A stretch of 33,211 nt of DNA from the NCBI GenBank assembly GCA_934573935.1, contig CAKTMO010000020.1, positions 1 through 33,211 on the forward strand, given 5' to 3'. Below the pieces are notes generated by a model that saw only the letters and a program-made list of their open reading frames with translations, was not told the DNA's origin and did not search any database. The translations under genes were made by a program, and so were the position numbers. Positions 3-26,412 of the stretch are shown in pieces. Every line of letters begins with the position of its first letter. Positions within the stretch are counted from its first letter, which is position 1. The DNA comes from an uncultured Oscillospiraceae bacterium (GTDB taxonomy: Bacteria > Bacillota > Clostridia > Oscillospirales > Oscillospiraceae).

Positions 3-98
3 CACTATCCCGGAAGCCTTTGGAGCAACGAGCAGCATGAGCGCCGAATGCAGTATCAATGCGCCGTGCAGGGCTACGGGCGTTCATTTCAACCTTAG
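3..98 (+). other. Open-frame remnant at window edge
   Basis: One frame is open from the window start to a TAG at 96-98 (31 codons, including a Tyr-Pro-Gly-Ser-Leu-Trp stretch). It overlaps the start of the DUF3732 fragment in another frame. It could be the 3' end of a different gene joined here by recombination, or the frameshifted continuation of the DUF3732 gene. No family was recognised and the start lies outside the window. Low confidence. Confidence 0.2.
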
Positions 99-853
99 AG
101 CAGGAACGGCAAAAAAAGCAAGAGGAAATCAGGGCACTAGAAGCAGAGATTGATGGAATCTACCAACAGGAGGACGAAAGAGCACGACTGAGAGATATAA
201 ACGCCAGAAAAGGTAAAGTCGTTGGCCGAATAAGTCTCTGGGTTGAAAGCGTACAGAATGATACGGAATCTGAACAGCAGGAACAAGTTATCCGAGAAAT
301 AGAAAAACGCGTACAAGAGATTGACTCGATTCTAGATACAGACTCTGTGGATGAACGCAAACAATCTGCACTTTCTAGAATACAGGAAGATATGACAAAA
401 TGGGCAAAGGAATTGCAACTTGAGCACTGCGATAATCCTTACAGACTTGATTTGAATAAGGTTACCGTTATTGTAGATAAACCTGAACGTCCCGTTCCTC
501 TTAAGCAGTTGGGAAGCGGGTCTAACTGGGTAGGGGTTCACCTTATTGCCTATTTTGCATTGCAGCACTATTTTATCGGTGCAAAGCGTCCGGTCCCAAG
601 ATTTATGTTCCTCGATCAGCCCTCTCAGGTCTACTTTCCATCTGAGTTTGACGAGAAGAAAACCGATTGGAATGAAGTCAACAAAATATATCAGTTTGTT
701 ATTGACCGGACAACTGAACTTCAAGGACAGTTGCAGGTCATCATTGTGGATCATGCAGACCTGAAAAAAGATTCTTTCATGGAATTTATTCGTGAAAATT
801 GGTGGCCAGACGATAAAAATCTAGTACCGATTGATTGGTATAAGTCAGAGTAA
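59..853 (+). pseudogene. DUF3732 (ABC-3C type) ATPase, C-terminal fragment
   Basis: The 264 residues match the C-terminal part of DUF3732 proteins, SMC/ABC-like ATPases that belong to ABC-three-component conflict systems. Residues 10-50 are a charged coiled coil. An ABC-signature-like LGSGSNW lies at 151-157, and a Walker B strand with its acid (FMFLDQPSQ) at 182-190. Family members are usually around 600 residues with an N-terminal Walker A. Here an in-frame stop at 38-40 precedes the first ATG and no P-loop is present, so the head is incomplete. The gene is AT-rich compared with the GC-rich core genes, and it ends against a broken integrase, which fits a decayed island. No partner ABC-3C gene is visible, although it could lie to the left of the window. 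The family call is from memory of motifs; the truncation is seen directly. Confidence 0.7.
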
Positions 854-856
854 AAA

Positions 857-902
857 CAGAAATCCCAGACTATCAGAATCTATTGATAGCTTGGGATTTC
901 TG
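857..902. terminator. Bidirectional hairpin between DUF3732 remnant and int
   Basis: The near-perfect inverted repeat CAGAAATCCCA / TGGGATTTCTG has further pairing inside (CTATCA/TGATAG). It lies just after the DUF3732 stop, is preceded by A5 and followed by CTTTT. The last codons of the opposing integrase frame run into it. It likely terminates transcription from both sides. It could also mark the recombination edge of the island. Confidence 0.6.
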
Positions 903-1927
903 CTTTTGCAGAGATTTATTTTTTGTCGTGTGCTTGACATACGGGTGGCGCAGATCATGGAAGCGTATCCTTGGCAGTCCTGCCCTTTTTAGAACTCTTT
1001 GCAGCATGTACAGGACGCTGTCCGGTGACATGGGGCCTCCGGTGGGCGATGGGAAAACCCACTCGCTGCCACTGACCTTATGCTTCTGTGCTTTCAGTAC
1101 GTCTATCGCGTCTGCCGACAGCGGCAGTGTGCGGTAGGCGTTTTTCGTTTTTAGTGGGGCCTCCTCTACCCTGCCGTTCTGCCGTGAGATGGCTCGTTGG
1201 ATTTTCAATACACTGCGGTCGAAGTCTACATCTGTCCATTTCAGTCCTAGCAACTCCCCTCGGCGCAGGCCGGTGGCAAGGTCGAGATAGTATAACTCGT
1301 ACACGCCGGTCTCCTTGGCTTCCCGAAAGAAAGCGCTCAGTTGGCTGGCGGTCAATGTTTTCATCTCTTTGTGCTCCACCTTCGGCAGCGCACAGCCCTG
1401 CGTGGGGTTTTTGTTCACCAGCTTTTGCTCCATGGCGAGGTTATAGGCTGAGCAGATCATCTGATGGATGTTGCGGACAGTTTTCGGAGCTAATCCTTTC
1501 GGTTTCTTCTTGGCTTCAATTCGGTCTACCCGACCGCCTTCCAGCAGATACTTGTAGAATTTTTGTAAATCCAGAGAGGTCAATTCCGTCAGAGGGATGC
1601 TGCCGATTTGGGGTTTGATGTGGTTCTTGAGGAAACCTTGACTTGTTTTGAATGTGGATGGCCGCAGTTTAATTTTGGCGTAGTTTTCCATCCAGACCTC
1701 CGGCAACTGCCAACTGTGAAGCTTTTTGCCTTGCCATAATCAATGCCCACATTTTCCTCGATGGCGGTCTTTAGTTTCTCTTTCACTTCTGCCTGCGTCT
1801 TACCGAGAACATTCTTGATGATGGCCTTCCCTGTCTCCGGATTATGGCCGACGGTATAGCGCCCTTCCCACCGACCATCCTTCCTTTTCCTGATGTTGCC
1901 CTCCCCGTTTGCTCGTCGTTTTGGCAT
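873..1927 (-). pseudogene. int: Tyrosine recombinase/integrase, frameshifted and truncated
   Basis: This is a Tn916/ICE-type tyrosine integrase in two frames. The N-terminal AP2-like arm-binding part starts at ATG 1925-1927 (MPKRRANGEGNIRKRKDGRW, with GGAGGG upstream) and reads to about 1715. The SAM-like core-binding domain and catalytic domain continue in another frame from about 1706 (PEVWMENYAKIKLRPSTF) to 873, so a small indel lies near 1706-1716. The catalytic part keeps the first Arg box (ATGLRRGELLGLKW) and HDLRH. It then departs abruptly into a basic tail with no GH(S/T) box and no nucleophilic Tyr. Both lesions predict an inactive enzyme. Its place beside dapF marks the inner boundary of an old island. 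A sequencing error could explain the frameshift but not the missing C-terminus. Confidence 0.85.
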
Positions 1928-9963: not shown

Positions 9964-9996
9964 ATGCCCGCAAGGCAAAGCCTTGCGGGCATTTTT
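9964..9996. terminator. Shared terminator of XRE gene and sigE
   Basis: A 13-bp perfect stem ATGCCCGCAAGGC / GCCTTGCGGGCAT with an AAA loop is flanked by an A-run and T5, so it works both ways. The sigE stop codon lies inside the T-run. Confidence 0.95.
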
Positions 9997-10690
9997 ACGC
10001 CATTTTCACGATCTCCCGCCGCAGCCGCAGAATGATCCGCTTTTCCAGTCGGGAGATGTAGGATTGAGAGATCCCCAGCCGGTCGGCCACCTCCTTCTGG
10101 GTCAGCTCCTTCCGCCCGCCAAGGCCAAAGCGCAGCGAGATAATATCCTGCTCCCGCGGTGACAGCTTCGCCACAGCGCTGTGCAGCAGCTGGCGATCCA
10201 CGTCCTCCTCCAGCGGGCGCATCACCACATCCTCCTCGGTGCCCATCACATCGCTCAACAGCAGCTCTTTGCCATCCCAATCAGTGTTCAGCGGTTCATC
10301 AAAGCTGACCTCCGTGCGGGTGTTGCTGTTTTTCCGCAGATACATCAGTATCTCATTCTCAATGCACCGTGAGGCATAGGTGGCCAGCTTGATATTCTTG
10401 TCGGTCCGAAAGGTATTCACCGCCTTGATCAGCCCAATGGTGCCAATGGAGATCAGGTCCTCAATGTTGATGCCGGTGTTGTCAAAGCGCTTGGCGATAT
10501 AGACCACCAGCCGCAGATTCCGTTCGATCAGCGTCTGCCGCGCCCCCTCCTCCGGCAGACGGCCCAGCACCTCCGTTTCCTCCTGCCGCGAAAGCGGCGG
10601 CGGCAGCGTGTCGCTGCCCCCTATGTAGTAAACACTATCCGACCTGGTCAGCCGTCGGATCCATTGTACAAGCCGCCGCCACAGTCCCAT
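9995..10690 (-). CDS. sigE: Pro-sigma-E, mother-cell sporulation sigma factor
   Basis: SigE directs early mother-cell gene expression in sporulation. The 231-residue protein shows the SigE hallmark [14 protein letters not shown] after a basic, amphipathic N-terminal pro-sequence of about 20 residues; family knowledge places the processing site near the YYIGG. Region 2 ([43 protein letters not shown]) and region 4 ([20 protein letters not shown]) are intact. The ATG is supported by AAAGGAG upstream. The gene starts inside spoIIGA, overlapping it by 56 nt in another frame, and encodes the substrate of that protease. The terminator abuts its stop codon. Confidence 0.96.
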
Positions 10691-11549
10691 GTACCGCTCC
10701 TTTCTCTCCGCCGCCCCAAAGGGCCTGATAACCGCCCGCGCCCACTCGGGTATACGTCAGCGCCACCAGCGCCCGCGGGATCCGCCTGCGGCCGATCTGG
10801 ATATGATCGCTGCGGCAGGCCAGCAGCAAACCGCCCTCTGTTCCCACCGCCCGAAACGGCAGCAGCACAAAGGGGATGCTGATCCCCGCTTGATAGAGTC
10901 GGGCCATCTTCTCCTCCGGCGCCGCGGCGCTGCACAGGATCTCCACCGCCGCGGCAGGCCAAAGCCCCCGCAGTGCGGACGCCTCCGCCACCAGCACCGG
11001 CTGTCCGCCCACAGGATCCCGCAGCGTATTGCCGTTGTCCCGCAGCGCCCGCAGACGGCAGCGGCGGCCGTTCAAAACTACATCGATATCCATCAGCTCT
11101 CCCCCTTCATGACGGGCCCCCTGCCGGAACACCACATGCAGCAAGCCATAAAACACCGCCGCCGTTCCCAGCAGCACCAGCCAACTGATGTTGGCATAAT
11201 AGATCCGCCGCAGCAGTCCCATAGGCGACCCCGTCAACAGTCCCAACGCCAGTAAAAGCCCCGCCAGCCCGCCGGACAGCAGCCAGAACAGCGCCGTCAG
11301 CCGCCAGGGCCGCACCTCTTTGTGAAACGCACACCGCGCCAACGCCACCCCCGTACCGATGCGGCATAGCGGATGCGCCAGCACCGGCACCAGAAACACC
11401 GACACGGCGTAAAGGGCTCCCGCGGCGGCACAAACGGCAAACCGCAGCCGCCGCAGCGGCGTGCCCGCCAGCGTGGCAGTGGTCATCAGCAGCAGATAGT
11501 CCACCGCCAGATTCAGCGCCAGCAGCCGGTCAACATATACCACCGTCAC
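10635..11549 (-). CDS. spoIIGA: Sigma-E processing peptidase SpoIIGA
   Basis: SpoIIGA is the membrane-bound aspartic protease that removes the pro-sequence of sigma-E after a signal from the forespore. The N-terminal half holds about five membrane segments, starting with [19 protein letters not shown]. The soluble C-terminal half carries the protease motif, here [18 protein letters not shown], with the catalytic Asp near residue 171. The family commonly has DTGN where this has DNGN. The GTG at 11547-11549 (304 residues) is chosen because GAGGTGAG precedes it and the family N-terminus TVVYVD follows directly. The C-terminus extends 56 nt into sigE, an unusually long overlap for this pair. Confidence 0.93.
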
Positions 11550-11568
11550 CGCCCTCACCTCGTCCCTT

Positions 11569-11602
11569 ATTATAGGACGGCCCGCCTGGAAATCCTGTCG
11601 CA
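11569..11602 (-). promoter_or_regulatory. Candidate Spo0A-controlled spoIIG promoter
   Basis: On the minus strand a perfect -10 TATAAT sits at 11569-11574. No -35 is present at 17 bases. About 22 bases upstream lies TGCGAC, and the plus strand reads TGTCGCA at 11596-11602, a 6-of-7 match to the Spo0A box TGTCGAA. This copies the layout of B. subtilis spoIIG, which has a 22-base spacer with Spo0A bound at the -35. The mRNA leader would be short (about 13 nt). Confidence 0.55.
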
Positions 11603-11637
11603 AAAAAGCACCCCGCAGGATTTCTCCCGCAGGGCGC
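11602..11637 (-). terminator. Terminator of the Dabb/DUF951/rarA unit
   Basis: On the minus strand a 12-pair stem (with G-U pairs), GCGCCCTGCGGG / CCTGCGGGGTGC, is followed by T6, eight bases past the Dabb gene stop. Its T-run touches the putative Spo0A box of spoIIG. Confidence 0.85.
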
Positions 11638-17633: not shown

Positions 17634-17634
17634 T

Positions 17635-17677
17635 AAAACAGGAGGTCCGAAGCCTATGGCTTCGGACCTCCTGTTTT
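17635..17677. terminator. 20-bp perfect-stem bidirectional terminator
   Basis: The left arm 17635-17654 (AAAACAGGAGG...GAAGCC) and right arm 17658-17677 are perfectly complementary over 20 bp with a TAT loop, and the ends are A4 and T4. It separates the GNAT gene from the oppositely oriented GLUG-protein gene. Confidence 0.95.
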
Positions 17678-17682
17678 ACGTA

Positions 17683-20600
17683 TTATTCCGTCTCGCCGTT
17701 TTGATCCGCGGCGTGCCGCCGCTTCCGGCGGAGCAGCACAACGGCGCCCGCGGCCGCCATTGCCGCCGCGGCGGCAATGGCCAGCCACCACATCCCGTGT
17801 CCGGCATGGATCAGTGTGATCGTCCCATCCCCCGCCATGGTAAAGCTGAGATAGCCGCCGTTGACCTGGGCATCGGCCTTTTTCGCGCCATTGCCGCTGT
17901 CCACGTATACGGTATAGCGCTCTCCCTTCTGGGGAAGCAGCCAACGCACCGTATGGCTCTCCTGCCCGTCATCGGGGATCTGGATGAACAATGTCTCCAC
18001 GGCCTTGGAGGCGGTGTTTTCCTCCTCCCGCACCTGCAGGATGTCGCTGTCGCGGAATTTTCCCTGCACTAACAGCACATCGTGTCCATCGCGCTGCTGG
18101 GGCGAGGCCAAAGTGGTCACATAGGGCGTATAGACCGCCGTGACCAGCGTGTCAAAGCGCAAGTGCTTCAGCTCGCTCTTGTCCCAGTGCACGTAGTAAT
18201 TCTCCTTTTCCGGAAGGACCGGATACACGTCGCTTTCAAAGGACGCGCCATAGGAAAAGCGCTGGGACTGTAATGTCTCGCCGTCCAGCACAAAGCGCAG
18301 CTGCATGCTGCGGAACGCATCAGGGGTGTCCTCCCTCTCGCACAGGGCCTCATAGGTGATACCCTCCGCCTTTCCGGCATAGCTGATCCGGTCCACACCG
18401 GCCAGGGTGTCCGAGACGAAGTAGTTTCCGCTGTATGTGCCGGTGATCTCACCGGCCACGGCGCCGCCCAGCTGCGTGCAGTCCGTCACCTCCACCATGG
18501 ACAGGCAGTCGGACACACGGCTGCCGGAGCCCACGATGCCGCCCACATATTTGCGGCCGCTCAGGGTACACTTGGCGTAGCTGCTGCGGATGGAGGACAG
18601 CGACAGGCCGCATACGCCGCCCACATAGTCGCCGTTCTCGCTGGAAACATCGCCGTAATCGCCGCAGCCGGACACCGTGCCCAGATCCATGCGGCCCACC
18701 AGTCCACCGGCGCAGCTCTTTTTGGCCTGTACCCTGCCGTTATTTTCGCAGTCCAGCAAAATGGCGCGGGTCTGATAGGTAAAGCGGGTCGTCCGGTTCT
18801 CCGATGTCAGCAGGTCGTCCTCCGGATCCAGGTCATACTCAATCGCCATGGAACCGGCCACGCCGCCCACATTCCGGTCGGCGTCAATGATGCCGTAATT
18901 CGTACATTCCAGCACCTTGCCTCGTGTGGCGCTTTGCAGACTCTCCTCGGACACATCCTCATACACGTCGGAGTAATCCACATTCTGTGTGCTGTTCAGC
19001 ACGTTCAAAAACAGATTCATGACCTTCATGAACTGGTCATTGACAGCCCGTACATCCACCAGCAGCACCGTTCCCGCGCGGGACATCTCGTCGTTCAGCG
19101 CGGTCAGCTCATTGCCGATCCCGCCCAGGGCGCTGTTCAGAGCGTCGGCGCTCTCGCCAAACTCACTGCCCAGTCCCACAAAAGAGCCTGGGGATTCCCC
19201 CGACAGATCCTTCGCCCACTGCGCCGCCTTGGCAAACGCGCTGCTCAGCGCCGCGGAGGCATCCTCCGCCCCTGCCAGCGCAGCGTCCAGCTGCTCCGTG
19301 ATCGTACCCATTTCTCCGTTGATCTTGCGCAGCGCGTCCAGCGCCTCTCCCAGATGGGCCACAGCGCTTCTGAAATGGCGGGACGCCTCGGCAAACGCCT
19401 CCGCGGCGCTTTGCAGATACGCGGCAGCCTGCCGTAAGGTGTCCAGATCCAGCTTCGGAAGGCCGGAGAGATCCATCTGGGCCACAAGGGCCGTCGTACT
19501 ACTCACGGCGGCGTCATACCGCCCCAGAACAGCCGCCAGACCGGCCTGCAGCTGTGCGGCGGTATCCGCCGTCACCGCGCCGCCCACCGCAAGCTCGCTG
19601 TTTGCCTGCGCAAGCGCGGCGCGCAGCGTCTCCTCCGCATCCCACAGGGCAGAGATGGCGTCGTGGGCGTCTGTGATATCCGCGTTGTCCGTGCCGGTGA
19701 TCAGTGCCAGGGCCTTCTCCAGCGCCGCAAGTCCCCGTTCCAGCGCGTCGCAGCCCTGGGTGATCTCCGTACAGACCGCCTCCAGCGCCGCAAGGGCCTC
19801 CTCATTGTATTCCTCCATGCCGCCGACGGTCTCCACCAGCTGCCGCAGCGCGGCGATGGCCTGCGTCATGCCGTCCGACGCTGCCGACAGGTCCTCCAGA
19901 ATAGGCGACGCCTTGGCCAGATACCGCTCCGCCAGCAGCAGAAGGTTGTTGGCGGTCTCCACATTGCTGTCCACAAAATCTCCCATCTGGCCCGCCATAG
20001 AATAGGCGCTGTCGCGGGCGCCGTCGGCATAGTCGGCCAGTCGGGAGACCCCTCCCGACACCGTATCCGAAGCGGACTGGGCGTCATCCAGCGCACGGTC
20101 GATCAGATCATGCAGCACATTCAGCTCGCCCTGCAGCTCGTCCAGACCGCTGGAGGAGAACTGCAGCGTAATGTCCGGCGCCATCTGCCCCACGATGCCG
20201 CCCACGTCCTTGCGGCCCTGGACGACGCCGCGGTTGATGCAGCTGGCCATATAGCCGTTCTGCCGTCCCGCGATGCCGCCTGCGTTATAGCCCACATGGG
20301 GATAGCCCACCGTGCCGGAGTTCACGCAGCTCTGCACAACGCCGTTGGAATAGCCCGCTATGCCGCCGGTGTCCGTCGTCACGGCGTTCTCCGACACGTC
20401 CTCCCGCTTCAGCAGGCTGTACAGCGTGCTCTCAAGGCCGCTGATGTCCGCCGCCATATCCTCGTCGCTGACGGCGGTGTTGACCGCCGCCGTATTGCTG
20501 CAATTCAGCAGCGTTCCTGCGTTCTGTCCGGCGATGCCGCCGGTGAACTGGCTGCCCCGCACCGCACCGGCGGTGCGGCAGTCCTCGATCACGCCGCTGG

Positions 20601-21102
20601 ACTCGTTCTTTCCGGCAATTCCGCCCACATAGTCGCCGCCTATGACGATGCCGCTGAAGCTGCACGCCTCGATCCGTCCGGCATTGACACCGGCGACGCC
20701 GCCGATCTGGCTCTGGGTGCCGGAGGGCGTCACATCGCCCTCCACCGCCAGATCCTTCACCACCGCTCCGGCCTCGATCCGGCTGAACAGGCCATAGTCC
20801 GCAGCGCTTCGCGTCAGGTTCAGGCCGTAGATCCGGTGTCCCTGCCCGTCGAAGGTACCGTAGAACACAGGGATGGAGATCTCCGTCTCCTCCGCTTCGA
20901 TGTCGGCGGTCAGCGTCACCGTCAGACCCTGGGAATAGGTATCCACCTTACAGTGCTCGGCAAAGGCCAGCAGATCCTTTTTGGTGCCGATACGCACCGT
21001 CTTTCCCTCCGCAAACACCGCCGGACACAGACACAGGGACAGCACCAGCACCAGTGCCAGCAGCGCCGCGGTGATGCGCCGCAGTATGTTATTCCGCTTC
21101 AT
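17683..21102 (-). CDS. Large GLUG-repeat/helical-rod surface protein with C-terminal anchor
   Basis: This is an 1139-residue exported protein. A signal peptide covers 1-31 (cleavage after VFA). Residues 75-305 form a right-handed beta-helix-like block with GLUG motifs (GGVAG 134, GGIAG 160, 188, 246 and 275, GGIVG 301). Residues about 318-705 are almost all helical, with heptad-like Ala/Leu spacing. A second GLUG block spans 728-890 (GGVAG 746, GGLVG 799, GGVCG 828, GGIVG 854). A beta-rich region follows (about 925-1095; the YGASFESDVYPVLPEKENYYVHW segment resembles a Listeria-Bacteroides repeat). One membrane helix (1104-1125) and RRKRRH then end the protein. No LPXTG is present. The helical rod thus loops out of a split beta-helix. 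Its ATG lies 14 nt inside the RND transporter gene, so the two are made together. The function is unknown. Confidence 0.82.
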   Translation of the reverse strand: MKRNNILRRITAALLALVLVLSLCLCPAVFAEGKTVRIGTKKDLLAFAEHCKVDTYSQGLTVTLTADIEAEETEISIPVFYGTFDGQGHRIYGLNLTRSAADYGLFSRIEAGAVVKDLAVEGDVTPSGTQSQIGGVAGVNAGRIEACSFSGIVIGGDYVGGIAGKNESSGVIEDCRTAGAVRGSQFTGGIAGQNAGTLLNCSNTAAVNTAVSDEDMAADISGLESTLYSLLKREDVSENAVTTDTGGIAGYSNGVVQSCVNSGTVGYPHVGYNAGGIAGRQNGYMASCINRGVVQGRKDVGGIVGQMAPDITLQFSSSGLDELQGELNVLHDLIDRALDDAQSASDTVSGGVSRLADYADGARDSAYSMAGQMGDFVDSNVETANNLLLLAERYLAKASPILEDLSAASDGMTQAIAALRQLVETVGGMEEYNEEALAALEAVCTEITQGCDALERGLAALEKALALITGTDNADITDAHDAISALWDAEETLRAALAQANSELAVGGAVTADTAAQLQAGLAAVLGRYDAAVSSTTALVAQMDLSGLPKLDLDTLRQAAAYLQSAAEAFAEASRHFRSAVAHLGEALDALRKINGEMGTITEQLDAALAGAEDASAALSSAFAKAAQWAKDLSGESPGSFVGLGSEFGESADALNSALGGIGNELTALNDEMSRAGTVLLVDVRAVNDQFMKVMNLFLNVLNSTQNVDYSDVYEDVSEESLQSATRGKVLECTNYGIIDADRNVGGVAGSMAIEYDLDPEDDLLTSENRTTRFTYQTRAILLDCENNGRVQAKKSCAGGLVGRMDLGTVSGCGDYGDVSSENGDYVGGVCGLSLSSIRSSYAKCTLSGRKYVGGIVGSGSRVSDCLSMVEVTDCTQLGGAVAGEITGTYSGNYFVSDTLAGVDRISYAGKAEGITYEALCEREDTPDAFRSMQLRFVLDGETLQSQRFSYGASFESDVYPVLPEKENYYVHWDKSELKHLRFDTLVTAVYTPYVTTLASPQQRDGHDVLLVQGKFRDSDILQVREEENTASKAVETLFIQIPDDGQESHTVRWLLPQKGERYTVYVDSGNGAKKADAQVNGGYLSFTMAGDGTITLIHAGHGMWWLAIAAAAAMAAAGAVVLLRRKRRHAADQNGETE

Positions 21103-23560
21103 GGTGCGCCTCCTCTCCTCCGGTATGCTCCGGTAGCTCTTTTTCCGTCATGCTGCCGGACAGCAGATTCAGGTTCACGTCGCCCTCCACGCTGGCCCGC
21201 ATCACACCGCTGACCACACCGTGGATCTCGCCGTTGACCACGCCGTCCACAAACACACGGCCGCTGGACTCCCGCCTGCGGATCACCTTCGGCACGGCAA
21301 AGGACGTCTTATCCACAACGCCGCTGCCCACCAGCAGGATCTGCGGCAGCACGAACAGCACCAGAATCATGGAGATGATGGTGCCCCGTCCCAGACTCTG
21401 TCCGATACCGGCGATGGCCGCTTCCGAGGTCATCTGCCCGATCAGCACACCTGCCACCGTCAGAATACTGCCGGAAGTCAGTACGGTGGGAAACGCGAAA
21501 TTCAGCGTCTCAATGATGGCCTGCTGATGATCCATCCGGTTCTTCAGCTCCTGATAGCGGCTGGCGATGACGATGGCATAGTCGATGTTGGCGCCCATCT
21601 GGATGGAGCTGACCACCAGATAGCTCATAAAGAACAGCGGGCTGCCCGTAAGGGCGGGGATGGAGAAGTTCAGCCAGATGCTGCCCTGGATCACCATGAT
21701 CAGCAAGATCGGCATACCGGCGGAATTAAAGGTAAACAGCAGCACCACCAGCACGATCAGGATGGACACCACGCTGACCACCGTATTATCGCGGGAGAAG
21801 GACTTTTGGAAGTCATATTCATTGGTGGAGTCGCCCGCCACGTAGATGTCGCCGTCGGGATAATAGCTTCCGGCGATCTCACGGATGGTGTCAGTAAAAG
21901 CATAGGTGGTATCGCCGCCCACCGGCAGCGTCAGATACAGCAGCATACGGCTGTGCTCCTCGCCCTGCAGCTGCGCCTTGGCACTTTCGATCTGCCCTCT
22001 GGCGTCGTTGAGCATCTCCGTCTGCTCATCGCTCATGGTGACGATCTCCGCATCCATCTGGTCGCAGACAAACAGGAACATATCCATCAGCGGCACCTTA
22101 TACGAGGCGATGTTCCCCGCCAGCTTGCCGTAATCCCCCTGCTCTGTGGCATAGGCGGCATACAGCAGCTGCGACATCTCGTAGTCCAGATCCGCCAGCT
22201 CGGCAAACTGCCGCGGCGTCAGCCGATCCGCCAGCATATAGCCGTCCATGGCCTCCACATTGGCCAGGCCCATGGTGTGGTCGATCTCCTCATAGCCCTC
22301 CAGTTCACTGAGCAGCTGCGCCTCTTTCTCGTAGTCTCCGGCGGGCACCACCAGCGCCACCATATTGGAGCTGGTAAACGTATCCTTGATCTTGTTCTCC
22401 GCGATCTGCGTCTCGTTCAGCTTGGGCGTCGTCAGACCGCTGTAGCCGTAGGCATAGGGACATTTGCCGGAGAAAAAGATGCCGAAGATCACAAACACCG
22501 CAAAAATGACCGGAATGATGCGGCGGGTCTTGAAGTCAAATTTTCCGATGAAATCCACCTTGGGGACAAAGCTCTTATGCTTGGATCTTTCGATCAGCGG
22601 CCCGAACAGCACCAGAAGCCCCGGCATCACCACGAACACCGACAGCAGAGCATACATAATGGCTTTGATCAGGCAGATGCCCATATCCGGACCGATCTTG
22701 AACTGCATGAACAGCATGGCCACCAGGCCGCCCACCGTGGTCAGGGAGCTGGCGCTGATCTCCGGAATGGCGCGGCTCAAGGCGGCGATGGCCGCCTCGC
22801 GGATAGGCATGGTCTCCCGCTGCTCCTTAAAGTGGTTGCACAGGATCACCGCATAATCCAGACTGAGGGCCAGCTGTAAGATGCTGGTCACGGAGTTGGA
22901 CACAAACGAGATCTTCCCCAGCAGGAAATTGCTGCCCTGATTCAAGATCATGGCGATCACAAAGGTCAGCAGCAGCACCGGCACCTCGCCGTAGGTCTGT
23001 GAGGTAAACAGCAGCACCGCGATCACGATCACCGCCACATAGATCATGATGATGCCGACCTCTCTTGCGATGGTCTCCTGCAGGGTGTTGCCCAGATCCG
23101 TGGAGATGTACAGGTCATAGTCCGCCAGCGTCTCCTTCACCGCGTCCAGGGCCGTCAGGCAGGCGTCATCCGTCTCGTCGGCGTCAAAGGTCACGGAATA
23201 CAGCGCCGCGGCATTGCTGTAATGGTCGGTGGTCTCGTCGAAATCCACGCTCTGGACGCCCTTCACATCGGCGATGGCGTCCCGCAGCGCTTCCGCCGCG
23301 TCATAGGTGATGTTGTCCACCATCACCTCCGCCGTGCCATAGGTGGTGAATTCCGCCTCCATCACGTTCAGCGCCTGCTTCGTCTCGGCGTCATCCGGCA
23401 TGAATGCCGTCAGGTCGTTCTCCACCTCCACCCAGTTGCGGGAAAAGGCGGAGAAGATCAGGGTGATGACGGTCAGCAGGAAAAACAGATTCCGCTTATC
23501 CACGATAAAGGTCGCCAGCTTTACCATAAAGCTCTCCTTATGGGCGGTCTGCTGTGCCAT
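21089..23560 (-). CDS. MMPL/RND-family transporter with bactofilin-like tail
   Basis: This 823-residue proton-driven transporter has duplicated RND halves: one membrane helix (about 23-40), an extracellular loop, a five-helix bundle, then the same again. The intramembrane acids expected to carry protons are Asp235 (LALSLDYAVIL) and Asp660 (GANIDYAIVIASRY). The extracellular loop of the second half has a short helical part (KAQLQGEE). After the last helix comes an unusual tail, residues about 767-800, with Gly/Val alternation (VDGVVNGEIHGVVSG, ASVEGDVNLN) that recalls bactofilin beta-repeats. The ATG at 23558-23560 is preferred because of AAGGGGG upstream and the family N-terminus. It overlaps both neighbours (23 nt and 14 nt). 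The substrate may be lipid-like, as in other MMPL proteins, but this is unproven. Confidence 0.9.
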   Translation of the reverse strand: MAQQTAHKESFMVKLATFIVDKRNLFFLLTVITLIFSAFSRNWVEVENDLTAFMPDDAETKQALNVMEAEFTTYGTAEVMVDNITYDAAEALRDAIADVKGVQSVDFDETTDHYSNAAALYSVTFDADETDDACLTALDAVKETLADYDLYISTDLGNTLQETIAREVGIIMIYVAVIVIAVLLFTSQTYGEVPVLLLTFVIAMILNQGSNFLLGKISFVSNSVTSILQLALSLDYAVILCNHFKEQRETMPIREAAIAALSRAIPEISASSLTTVGGLVAMLFMQFKIGPDMGICLIKAIMYALLSVFVVMPGLLVLFGPLIERSKHKSFVPKVDFIGKFDFKTRRIIPVIFAVFVIFGIFFSGKCPYAYGYSGLTTPKLNETQIAENKIKDTFTSSNMVALVVPAGDYEKEAQLLSELEGYEEIDHTMGLANVEAMDGYMLADRLTPRQFAELADLDYEMSQLLYAAYATEQGDYGKLAGNIASYKVPLMDMFLFVCDQMDAEIVTMSDEQTEMLNDARGQIESAKAQLQGEEHSRMLLYLTLPVGGDTTYAFTDTIREIAGSYYPDGDIYVAGDSTNEYDFQKSFSRDNTVVSVVSILIVLVVLLFTFNSAGMPILLIMVIQGSIWLNFSIPALTGSPLFFMSYLVVSSIQMGANIDYAIVIASRYQELKNRMDHQQAIIETLNFAFPTVLTSGSILTVAGVLIGQMTSEAAIAGIGQSLGRGTIISMILVLFVLPQILLVGSGVVDKTSFAVPKVIRRRESSGRVFVDGVVNGEIHGVVSGVMRASVEGDVNLNLLSGSMTEKELPEHTGGEEAHHEAE

Positions 23561-23873
23561 GGCTCTGTTCCCCCTTTCTCTCCTCTTCCTCCAGCCGTGT
23601 TCCCCGCAGCGGCATCCGGACGCCGCCGCTGTGGACGGTCCCCCGCAGCCCGCCGTCCTCCTCATAAAGACGGGTGCTGCATTCCAGCTTACTCAATCCC
23701 GTGCGCAGCACATGCCGCAGGACAAGGCTCGCGCCCTCCCATGCGCCCGTCACGGGATTATCCACCCCCAGCAGGGACAGGGTACCCGTTACGGCGTCTC
23801 CGCTGCCCCGCAGGGTCAGGGTACCGCTGCGCTCTCCCAGCGGGCTCTCCAACACCACATGATATCGGGTCAT
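23538..23873 (-). CDS. Small beta-rich protein of the RND operon
   Basis: This 111-residue protein of no recognised family has repeating short strands with Gly turns (SGTLTLRGSG, VTGTLSLLGVDNPVTGAWEG, LRGTVHSGGVRMPLRG), as in a small barrel or lipocalin-like sheet. A charged tail follows (EEEERKGEQ). It has no signal peptide, so it is probably cytoplasmic. TTAGGAGG precedes the ATG. It is the first gene of the operon divergent from the TetR gene, and its 3' end overlaps the transporter start by 23 nt. A ligand-binding or chaperone role for the transporter system is possible but only inferred. Confidence 0.72.
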   Translation of the reverse strand: MTRYHVVLESPLGERSGTLTLRGSGDAVTGTLSLLGVDNPVTGAWEGASLVLRHVLRTGLSKLECSTRLYEEDGGLRGTVHSGGVRMPLRGTRLEEEERKGEQSHGTADRP

Positions 23874-23903
23874 AAATGCCTCCTAAGTCGTATGATCCAG
23901 CAT

Positions 23904-23932
23904 AGCATACCGGATGCCCTCCGCAAAAGCAA
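23904..23932 (-). promoter_or_regulatory. Possible promoter of the RND/GLUG operon
   Basis: On the minus strand, TTGCTT (23927-23932), 17 bases and TATGCT (23904-23909). Both boxes are imperfect. The -10 overlaps an imperfect inverted repeat (GCAT-5-ATGC) that could be a TetR site. A second TTGACC lies a few bases further upstream but at poor spacing. Confidence 0.45.
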
Positions 23933-23984
23933 AGGTCAAATACCTCCCCCGTGTCAAATCTTTGCGCAGTCTCCCTTTGCCCTA

Positions 23985-24014
23985 TTGGCTTTTCTCCTGC
24001 GTCTATGGTATAAT
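23985..24014 (+). promoter_or_regulatory. tetR-family gene promoter
   Basis: TTGGCT (23985-23990), 18 bases and a perfect TATAAT (24009-24014), 24 bases before the GTG start. Two direct repeats of GTCAAAT (23935 and 23953) lie between the two divergent promoters. Confidence 0.75.
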
Positions 24015-24037
24015 AGGCGGCACAGGAGGGATCAGCC

Positions 24038-24640
24038 GTGGAAAAACGCACCTACGCCGCGTCCGATCAGACAAAGCGCGCCCTCGCGGCGGCATTGAAG
24101 GAGCTGATGGCGCAGCGGCCCATCGACAAGATCACCATTCACGATATCACCGAGCGCTGCGGCATACGGCGTCAGAATTTTTACTACCACTTTGAGGATC
24201 TCTACGACCTGATGCGCTGGATGTTCCAAAATGAAGCCCTCTCCCTTCTCCAGCAGCACGAGGGGATGTTGCTATGGCAGGAGGGACTTTTGCAGCTGTT
24301 CCGGTATATCGAGGAAAACCGCGCCGTCTGCCTCTGCGCCCTGCGCTCTGTGGGACGGGAGCACCTGAAGCGGTTTTTTGAGCGGGATATCCATGCCGTC
24401 ATCCACCGCACCGTGGAACAGCTGGGCCGCGAGATCGGCGCCATCGACGCCGGAGCCGCGGATATCGAACTGACCACCCATTTCTACGTGGTGGCCCTGG
24501 CCGGCATGCTGGAAAGCTGGCTGCTGGGCGAGATCGATTACACACCGGAGCAGCTCATCGCCTTTGCCGACCGCACCCTACAGGACCACGTCCGCGGCGC
24601 TAAGCTCCGTTACCACGCCAACACAGAACCTGATCGCTAA
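24038..24640 (+). CDS. TetR-family regulator (DhaS-like)
   Basis: This 200-residue repressor-type protein has an N-terminal helix-turn-helix around residues 27-58 (ITIHDITERCGIRRQNFYYH), typical of the TetR subgroup with DhaS/TetR_C_8 ends. The C-terminal ligand domain is helical (LLQLFRYIEENRAVCLCALR, then HFYVVALAGMLESWLLGE). The start is GTG at 24038 with AGGAGGG seven bases upstream. It diverges from the RND/GLUG operon across a 164-base gap, the classic layout for a repressor of an exporter, so local control is the likely role. Confidence 0.9.
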   Translation: MEKRTYAASDQTKRALAAALKELMAQRPIDKITIHDITERCGIRRQNFYYHFEDLYDLMRWMFQNEALSLLQQHEGMLLWQEGLLQLFRYIEENRAVCLCALRSVGREHLKRFFERDIHAVIHRTVEQLGREIGAIDAGAADIELTTHFYVVALAGMLESWLLGEIDYTPEQLIAFADRTLQDHVRGAKLRYHANTEPDR

Positions 24641-24679
24641 AAAAAGCACCCGCACACCATGGTGTGCGGGTGCTTTTTT
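24640..24679. terminator. 40-base perfect palindromic bidirectional terminator
   Basis: This is a perfect palindrome. The GC core GCACCCGCACACC reflects around CCATGG, with six A on the left and six T on the right. It lies between the TetR gene and the opposing GGGtGRT gene and suits both. Confidence 0.95.
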
Positions 24680-24703: not shown

Positions 24704-25702
24704 TTACTTCACAGCTTCCTCAACCGCCACAGCCACGGCCACGGTAGCACCAACCATAGGATTGTTGCCCATGCCCAGGAAGCCCATCATCTCCACGTGA
24801 GCGGGGACGGAACTGGAGCCTGCAAACTGTGCGTCGGAGTGCATACGGCCCATGGTGTCGGTCATACCATAGCTGGCGGGACCGGCGGCCATGTTGTCGG
24901 GATGCAGCGTGCGGCCGGTGCCGCCGCCGGAGGCCACGGAGAAATATTTCTTTCCCTGCTCGATGCATTCCTTCTTATAGGTGCCCGCCACAGGATGCTG
25001 GAAGCGGGTGGGGTTGGTGGAGTTGCCGGTGATGGACACATCCACGCCCTCGTGATGCATGATGGCCACGCCCTCGCGGACATCGTCGGCGCCGTAGCAG
25101 CGAACGTCGGCGCGCTCGGTCTCGGAATAGCGGATCTCGCGGACGATATTCAGCTTGCCGGTGTAGTAGTCGAACTGGGTCTGCACGTAGGTGAAGCCGT
25201 TGATGCGGCTGATGATCTGGGCGGCGTCCTTGCCCAGACCGTTCAGGATCACCCGCAGGGGCTGCTTGCGGGCCTTGTTGGCGTTCTTGACGATGCCGAT
25301 AGCGCCCTCGGCGGCGGCGAAGGACTCGTGACCGGCCAGGAAGGCAAAGCACTTGGACTCGTCGCTCAGCAGCATGGCGCCCAGGTTGCCGTGACCCAGA
25401 CCAACCTTACGATCCTCGGCCACAGAGCCGTCGATGCAGAAGGACTGCAGGCCCACGCCAATCAGCTTGGCCGCCTCGGCGGCGGTCTTGACGCCGGCCT
25501 TGATGGCGATGGCCGCGCCCACGGTATACGCCCAGCAGGCGTTTTCAAAACAGATGGGCTGGATGCTCTTCACGATCTCATAGGGATCAAAGCCCTTGGC
25601 CTTGCAGATCTCGCGGCACTCCTCCACGGAGCCGATGCCGTACTGGGCGAGGACGCCGTTGATCTTGTCGATTCTTCTCTCGTAACTTTCAAACAGAGCC
25701 AT
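24704..25702 (-). CDS. GGGtGRT protein
   Basis: This 332-residue protein belongs to a conserved family of anaerobes named for its motif, seen here as SGGGTGRTLHPDN (GGGTGRT at 259-265). The C-terminal GRMHSDAQFAGSSSVPAHVE and MGNNPMVGATVAVAVAV are also typical. Eight cysteines occur (29, 33, 51, 56, 89, 118, 202, 246); C29-X3-C33 and C51-X4-C56 are candidates for metal or cluster binding. It has no signal peptide. Its biochemical function is not established. It lies 17 bases downstream of an IscU-like scaffold gene, its usual partner, which points to Fe-S or related metal chemistry. GGAGGAGG precedes the ATG. Confidence 0.9.
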   Translation of the reverse strand: MALFESYERRIDKINGVLAQYGIGSVEECREICKAKGFDPYEIVKSIQPICFENACWAYTVGAAIAIKAGVKTAAEAAKLIGVGLQSFCIDGSVAEDRKVGLGHGNLGAMLLSDESKCFAFLAGHESFAAAEGAIGIVKNANKARKQPLRVILNGLGKDAAQIISRINGFTYVQTQFDYYTGKLNIVREIRYSETERADVRCYGADDVREGVAIMHHEGVDVSITGNSTNPTRFQHPVAGTYKKECIEQGKKYFSVASGGGTGRTLHPDNMAAGPASYGMTDTMGRMHSDAQFAGSSSVPAHVEMMGFLGMGNNPMVGATVAVAVAVEEAVK

Positions 25703-25719
25703 GATTTCGTCCTCCTCCC

Positions 25720-26412
25720 TTATTCGTGGCGGGGGTCAATATACTTGACCGCGCTGTCCCACTGGCCGTAATGGCCGGTGGCCTTCTTCAGTGCCTCGTT
25801 GGCGTCGTCGCCCTTCTTGATGAAATCCATCATCTTGCCCAGGCTGATAAACTCATAACCGATGATCTCATCGTCCTTGTTCAGCGCCAGCTTGCTGCAA
25901 TAGCCCTCGGCCATCTCCAGATAGCGGGGGCCCTTCTCCTTGGTGGCAAACATAGTGCCCACCTGAGAGCGCAGGCCCTTGCCCAGATCCTCCAGAGAAG
26001 CGCCCACGGACAGGCCGCCTTCGGAGAATGCGGACTGGGTGCGGCCATAGACGATCTGCAGAAACAGCTCCCGCATGGCGGTATTGATGGCGTCGCACAC
26101 CAGGTCGGTATTCAGCGCCTCCAGAATGGTCTTGCCGATCAGGATCTCGGAAGCCATGGCGGCGGAGTGGGTCATGCCGGAGCAGCCGATGGTCTCCACC
26201 AGCGCCTCCTCGATGACGCCGTTCTTCACATTCAGGGTCAGCTTGCAGGCGCCCTGCTGGGGTGCGCACCAGCCGATACCATGGGTAAAGCCGGAGATAT
26301 CGCTGATCTCCTTGGCCTGCACCCACTTGCCCTCTTCGGGAATGGGAGCCGGGCCGTGATAAGCGCCCTTAGCCACAGGACACATATGCTGAACCTCAGT
26401 CGTATAGATCAT
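25720..26412 (-). CDS. IscU/NifU-like iron-sulfur scaffold protein
   Basis: This 230-residue protein is related to the IscU/NifU N-terminal scaffold domain but is much longer than IscU (about 130). Likely ligand cysteines are Cys49/Cys56 (GWCAPQQGAC), Cys77 in the conserved loop IGCSGMTHSAAMAS and Cys172 in GYCSKLAL. These align by pattern with the three IscU cysteines. Cys11 and Cys106 are additional. It is the promoter-proximal gene of a pair with the GGGtGRT protein, with no cysteine desulfurase nearby, so it may be a dedicated carrier for that partner rather than a general scaffold. AAAGGAA precedes the ATG. Confidence 0.88.
   Translation of the reverse strand: MIYTTEVQHMCPVAKGAYHGPAPIPEEGKWVQAKEISDISGFTHGIGWCAPQQGACKLTLNVKNGVIEEALVETIGCSGMTHSAAMASEILIGKTILEALNTDLVCDAINTAMRELFLQIVYGRTQSAFSEGGLSVGASLEDLGKGLRSQVGTMFATKEKGPRYLEMAEGYCSKLALNKDDEIIGYEFISLGKMMDFIKKGDDANEALKKATGHYGQWDSAVKYIDPRHE

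Follow-up and report, generated by a model that had tools for sequence, protein, structure and literature searches.

The window analysed here, a 33,211 nt stretch from an uncultured Oscillospiraceae bacterium, carries on its minus strand a gene for an MMPL-type RND transporter of the GLUG-coupled subfamily (21089..23560, 823 aa), followed by the gene of the pump's dedicated partner (17683..21102, 1139 aa), a protein in which a long helical rod lies between two GLUG blocks and which we call the GLUG-rod protein. A gene for a 111 aa small protein (23538..23873, - strand) precedes the pump gene, and a gene for a 200 aa TetR-family regulator with a GTG start (24038..24640, + strand) diverges from the minus-strand genes across a gap of 164 nt. 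A preliminary description of the stretch placed four genes at these positions with overlaps of 23 and 14 nt, and the open reading frame coordinates agree: the small protein and pump genes share 23538-23560, and the pump and GLUG-rod genes share 21089-21102. The longest MMPL frame in the window opens at an ATG at 23665 and encodes 858 aa.

Two stretches of the pump match the MMPL domain (PF03176, 6.7e-39), and the GLUG-rod protein matches PF07581 in three stretches (1.8e-4; 22.2 bits against a cut-off of 20.5). The regulator has a TetR DNA-binding domain (PF00440, TetR_N, 8.4e-7; 29.1 bits against a cut-off of 24) together with PF14278, TetR_C_8 (5.7e-19). The small protein appears, by eye in a 19-row alignment, to be beta-rich and to have no signal peptide; it gave no Pfam match above cut-off, no NCBIfam match and no PDB match.

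Conservation of the pump and GLUG-rod pair

The pairing of pump and GLUG-rod gene is nearly invariant across genomes. Among the best 80 of 484 confirmed GLUG-rod relatives, which were fetched with their surroundings, an open reading frame search placed an MMPL gene immediately before the GLUG-rod gene on its strand, or in one frame with it, in 79; the 80th (L072) is cut by a contig end, and the approximately 400 nt that remain encode an MMPL C-terminus. Starting from the pumps gave the same picture. Of 291 genomes drawn evenly from the class, 33 have a pump of the GLUG-coupled subfamily (970-1409 bits, against 349 for the next best MMPL), and a GLUG-rod match lies downstream on the same strand of all 33 listed pumps, at -18 to +238 nt, three of them in one reading frame with the pump. 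The preliminary description named GLUG-rod homologues lying mostly away from RND genes as one observation that would speak against a coupling, and both searches found the opposite. A draw of 394 genomes of the order gave 37 pump matches, 31 with a GLUG-rod partner and 6 without (of the 31 pairs, G001 and G240 had already appeared in the 291-genome draw; G666 and G643 are a contig-end and a broken copy), and a draw of 199 genomes of the phylum gave five pumps, all with the partner, one of them (G010) already seen as L042. These draws overlap in genomes (for example G001, G010, G012, G014, G040 and G240), and extra copies could be missed, since the number of candidates scored per genome was at most 2 or 3 in the 291-genome draw, 2 in the order draw, 5 in the phylum draw and 4 for the second rod family described below. 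Relatives include Faecalibacterium prausnitzii (L068), Oscillibacter valericigenes (L012, L039) and Flavonifractor (L043). The partnership of pump and GLUG-rod protein is well shown.

The two genes are also tightly joined. The first possible start codon of the partner lies within the pump gene in 123 of 129 pairs (median -17 nt, with some genomes counted twice), a measure that overstates overlap because true starts may lie later. Three loci (L076, L149, L150) are natural fusions, single frames of 1921, 2003 and 1912 codons that form one clade and have no pump cytoplasmic tail. Where their two parts join they retain a hydrophobic stretch that has a V-x-A site, so the fused chain may still be cut after synthesis. 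L019, which had looked like a fourth fusion, proved to be a broken copy and was rejected.

The other two genes are companions rather than core, and the fixed four-gene cassette of the preliminary description was not borne out: it is a local arrangement, and the conserved unit is the MMPL pump and GLUG-rod protein alone. The small protein is patchy, occurring in 28 of 160 scanned loci. A TetR-like gene is adjacent in 60 of the 111 coupled loci with at least 1 kb of upstream sequence (divergent in 49), and also in 14 of 20 loci of other MMPL genes. Of the neighbour clusters printed, none other than TetR supplies a third gene at more than 25 of the 124 loci. A cytidylate-kinase-like protein, so identified by eye, follows the GLUG-rod gene in L007, L008, L015, L017, L059 and others; its cluster covers 13 of 124 loci, not all of them downstream.

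This distribution bears on one alternative account of the system, that it is a detoxifying efflux pump under TetR control which exports host bile acids, fatty acids or drugs in the manner of FarR/FarE, with the rod doing no more than stabilizing it. The divergent TetR/MMPL layout is that of farR/farE in Staphylococcus aureus (PMC10019231), where the FarE pump confers resistance to linoleic acid, and more than half of the coupled loci do have the regulator alongside; on the other hand a profile search finds no adjacent TetR in the remaining 51 of 111, and the substrate class is compatible with an adaptor role for the rod, so the account overlaps with the one developed below. We consider it unlikely. 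As a point of difference between the two systems, the available text of PMC10019231 mentions no rod partner (the FarE locus itself was not examined).

Architecture of the GLUG-rod protein and the pump

An AlphaFold2 model of the GLUG-rod protein (99-row alignment; mean predicted local distance difference test score, pLDDT, 83.6; predicted template modelling score 0.75) has strands from residue 35 to ~307, helices over 317-703, strands over 729-914, further strands, and a C-terminal helix at 1105-1130. The 387-residue helical region (18994..20154, - strand, also supported by its segment lengths) matches the rod of ~390 residues between two GLUG blocks that had been proposed from the letters. 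The blocks themselves, residues ~35-312 (20167..21000) and 729-915 (18358..18918, both - strand), align together to single PDB beta-helices (model ranges such as 34..911 and 33..915) and therefore look like two parts of one solenoid into which the rod is inserted; the PDB matches shown for the model are mostly beta-helices and helical bundles. Ten main helices make up the rod, with lengths of 25, 34, 43, 36 and 31 followed by 30, 42, 37, 28 and 26 residues (omitting a short helix at 545-550), roughly mirrored about residue 510, and the rod would on this model be a segmented antiparallel hairpin. Conservation is highest in the coils just before the rod (241-313) and next highest in those just after it (716-765).

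A signal peptide of the protein's own, with a V-x-A site, is recognizable by eye, and the protein ends in a putative membrane helix at residues 1105-1130 with a basic tail (17713..17790, - strand). No LPXTG motif was found in the sequence before this helix; TIGR01167 scores 16.8 bits against a cut-off of 15.9, covering only positions 8-33 of its 34. In long relatives the chain runs on past the membrane helix. Fourteen such relatives (13 distinct; the alignment has 14 rows, two of them identical, and of the 16 long frames seen L015 and L119 are not in it) have a second hydrophobic segment and about 400 further residues. The model of one such tail (L008:13352-14602, pLDDT 85.6) has two LolA-like halves; LppX, LprF and LprG head its list of Z scores (10.9-11.0), Foldseek places RseB (1.6e-5) and LprG (2.1e-5) first, and none of the four tails tested has a Pfam match above cut-off. 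The predicted fold of this tandem domain resembles that of the LppX/LprG/LolA lipid carriers. In mycobacteria, lppX mutants are defective in translocation of phthiocerol dimycocerosates, a process that also involves MmpL7, and LprG interacts with the PD2 domain of MmpL11 (PMC8427324).

The length of the rod, measured between flanking motifs, ranges from 166 to 715 residues over the sequences that could be parsed (198 of 246 proteins; 86 of 125 loci), with a middle half of 396-449 residues over those 86 loci. Such variation, like the weak sequence conservation of the rod, would fit a wall tether or sensor that anchors the pump, or gates it by the state of the wall or by substrate, while offering the substrate no route. 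The LppX/LolA-like domains on the partner in the long relatives point instead to substrate handling, and we regard such a tether or sensor as rather improbable.

In the pump, the pairs D235-Y236 and D660-Y661 are invariant in all 18 rows of an alignment; we take them to mark the proton-relay helices, with role and helix numbering as in MmpL3. The nearest solved proteins by sequence are MmpL4 and MmpL5 (6e-14 to 1.1e-9), together with MmpL3. Column occupancy in 30-residue bins reveals an extra stretch in the second extracellular domain (PD2), residues ~447-525 (21986..22222, - strand), which is present in the GLUG-coupled subfamily and in five aligned sister pumps that have no GLUG partner. Of 20 other clostridial MMPLs in the alignment, 19 lack it. 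The cytoplasmic tail at the C-terminus of the pump (21089-21250 in the window) consists of short G-x-V-x-G repeats that look bactofilin-like by eye; this tail is missing from the fused pumps, from L058 and from L080.

Rods and inserts in other clostridial MMPL pumps

A control set of 20 other MMPL genes was fetched from the same class. A same-strand gene comes next, at -53 to +74 nt, in 18 of these; one (L176) is cut by a contig end and one (L177) has no partner. The downstream genes define a second family of rod proteins (nine printed, 17 aligned), with a signal peptide and an N-terminal beta domain recognized by eye, a long rod that is helical or built of xxxLxxG repeats, and a conserved end that looks amphipathic. 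TIGR03057, the model of the xxxLxxG repeats, matches four of the six second-family proteins tested and does not match the GLUG-rod protein of the window. Both families appear secreted by eye, bear a rod and are encoded directly after an MMPL gene; the second differs in its N-terminal domain, its lack of GLUG repeats and its conserved, amphipathic-looking end.

For the same 291 genomes the list of other MMPL places has 60 entries, 53 of them with a second-family profile match downstream, and 33 of the 86 second-family places are not beside a listed MMPL. Of the seven MMPL places left unlinked, G226 and G299 run off a contig end, G052 is split over two contigs and is linked after all (a 54th), and G193 and G240 have inserts of some 600 residues, read as sequence, between the MMPL halves, within the second extracellular domain, which is also the site of the MmpL5 coiled coil. 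The last two, G137 (an 849-residue pump) and G133, have no partner and are unexplained. The inserts in the pumps of 1347 and 1402 residues (L191:1629-5672 and L192:3264-7472) are very large, look repetitive and lie between the two halves; searches with two profiles found no rod partner for either pump.

The preliminary description left undecided whether the rod protein is an extracellular adaptor of the pump or a cargo that the pump displays. As cargo, the GLUG-rod protein would be an adhesin or surface scaffold placed or modified by the pump, its rod presenting the beta-helix to the host or to neighbouring cells. A protein with its own signal peptide should be exported without the pump, however, and the replacement of a cargo by a different rod protein, or by an insert within the pump, would not be expected. 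Since MMPLs of the same class have one or the other of these, the adaptor half of the suggestion is favoured, and we judge the cargo half to be quite unlikely.

Comparison with known systems

The nearest parallel is to MmpS4/MmpL4 and MmpS5/MmpL5, which share an MMPL-type RND pump, a long helical hairpin outside the membrane and a partner gene in the operon. In MmpL5 a 196-residue coiled coil is inserted in the pump's own PD2, with MmpS as partner (PMC12501195, PMC12803245); this coiled coil is required for efflux and has been modelled as a 13 nm tube (PMC12501195). The window pump, by contrast, has no PD2 insert of ~200 residues as in MmpL4/MmpL5 (its extra PD2 stretch is ~80 residues), and its rod sits on a separate 1139-residue beta-helix protein. 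The HlyD/MFP adaptors are likewise membrane-held pump partners, in which a beta domain is interrupted by a helical hairpin whose length varies, and among Gram-positive adaptors serving ABC pumps long hairpins are found as well (PMC4446572). They have lipoyl, beta-barrel and membrane-proximal domains, whereas the beta part of the GLUG-rod protein is a predicted beta-helix and neither lipoyl nor HlyD-type beta-barrel domains were found in it by a Pfam search to E 1, which returned Glug and three models below cut-off. Our best reading is that the GLUG-rod protein may work like the MmpL4/MmpL5 coiled coil or like a periplasmic adaptor while belonging, by these tests, to neither family. The statement that no described system has this composition holds within the openly licensed literature, where we found no description of either MMPL/rod pairing, judged by titles and the beginnings of abstracts; the in-cis coiled coil of MmpL4/MmpL5 is nonetheless a clear functional parallel.

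A proposed export mechanism

We lean, with slightly better than even confidence, towards a two-protein export machine of monoderm Clostridia in which the pump hands a lipid or another amphiphile to the GLUG-rod protein, its dedicated extracellular adaptor. The MMPL pump, presumably proton-driven by analogy with its family, would take this substrate from the membrane, and the GLUG-rod protein, with its N-terminal signal or anchor segment and its C-terminal membrane helix, would sit over the extracellular domains of the pump, perhaps in direct contact as a 1:1 complex. The beta-helix is a plausible docking platform on the pump, because the coils at the base of the rod are the most conserved part of the protein. 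The helical hairpin would then extend outward into the wall as a conduit that guides the substrate or takes it over, a role that has been proposed for the coiled coil built into MmpL4/MmpL5, and in the long relatives the tandem LppX/LolA-like domain on the same chain might carry the lipid. TetR, where present, may tune expression to the substrate.

Several observations weigh against this proposal. Six related pumps have neither a GLUG-rod protein nor a second-family rod protein alongside, so the pump fold does not always need a rod partner. They form one clade inside the coupled group, and are therefore read as a single loss, in a 99-row tree of pumps that took in roughly one third of the 80 loci, the later coupled loci, the six partnerless pumps and 20 other pumps and was built by a quick method and rooted at its midpoint. 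The two unexplained pumps of the 291-genome draw (G137, G133) also count against the proposal, as does the start-codon measure that inflates the count of gene overlaps. The rod is conserved at the 90% level in only 6 of 392 columns, and in three relatives it is far shorter, at 166-175 residues from motif to motif, so the rod need not be long enough to span the wall. The window protein, finally, ends before the LppX/LolA-like domain, and a lipid substrate for the window pump is accordingly an extrapolation from relatives; no lipid-synthesis gene was recognized among the 18 largest neighbour clusters, which are unannotated.

RND pumps are understood best in their role as bridges between two membranes, and to our knowledge their role in single-membrane, thick-walled bacteria is largely open. 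The pairing of a pump with a surface rod in Clostridia, a class with many gut bacteria, suggests how such a pump could act across the Gram-positive wall. Were most clostridial MMPL pumps to have a dedicated extracellular rod, on a separate protein or built into the pump, this would be a testable answer for thick-walled cells, one that identifies the partner protein, connects these pumps with lipid handling and makes the natural fusions ready constructs for structural work. A broader generalization, which we hold only tentatively and think somewhat doubtful, is that monoderm RND/MMPL pumps generally work through a long extracellular helical rod, for which Clostridia have at least three solutions (the beta-helix rod protein with GLUG repeats, the second rod family and an insert within the pump), and that the GLUG-rod protein is a new class of RND adaptor, ended by a lipid carrier in some lineages, that moves lipids through or into the thick wall.

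Other features of the loci and the window

The partnerless clade comprises L139-L143 and L145, and a profile search found an adjacent TetR-like gene at none of these six loci. The gene following the pump in L139 encodes a 1171-aa secreted protein with a domain that looks phosphoesterase-like by eye.

A promoter-like site for the TetR gene (TTGGCT-18-TATAAT, with TG before the second hexamer; 10 of 12 matches to consensus) lies at 23985..24014 on the + strand and is the only such site in the stretch, against 2.2 in shuffled sequences by the consensus scan alone. A stem search found a terminator-like palindrome of 20 pairs just past the GLUG-rod stop codon (17634..17678), listed on the + strand; its stem is symmetric and it would probably be used on the - strand. 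A second terminator-like stem, of 18 pairs, lies past the TetR gene (24640..24679, + strand). The search gave eight such sites in all, against 3.7 in shuffles.

Beyond the TetR gene, a GGGtGRT protein adjoins a NifU-like protein (24704-26412), a pair whose role is unclear. Elsewhere in the window (9995-11603) a Sigma-70-type sigma factor gene adjoins a gene for a SpoIIGA-type protease, and their being side by side points to a host that forms spores or descends from a spore former.

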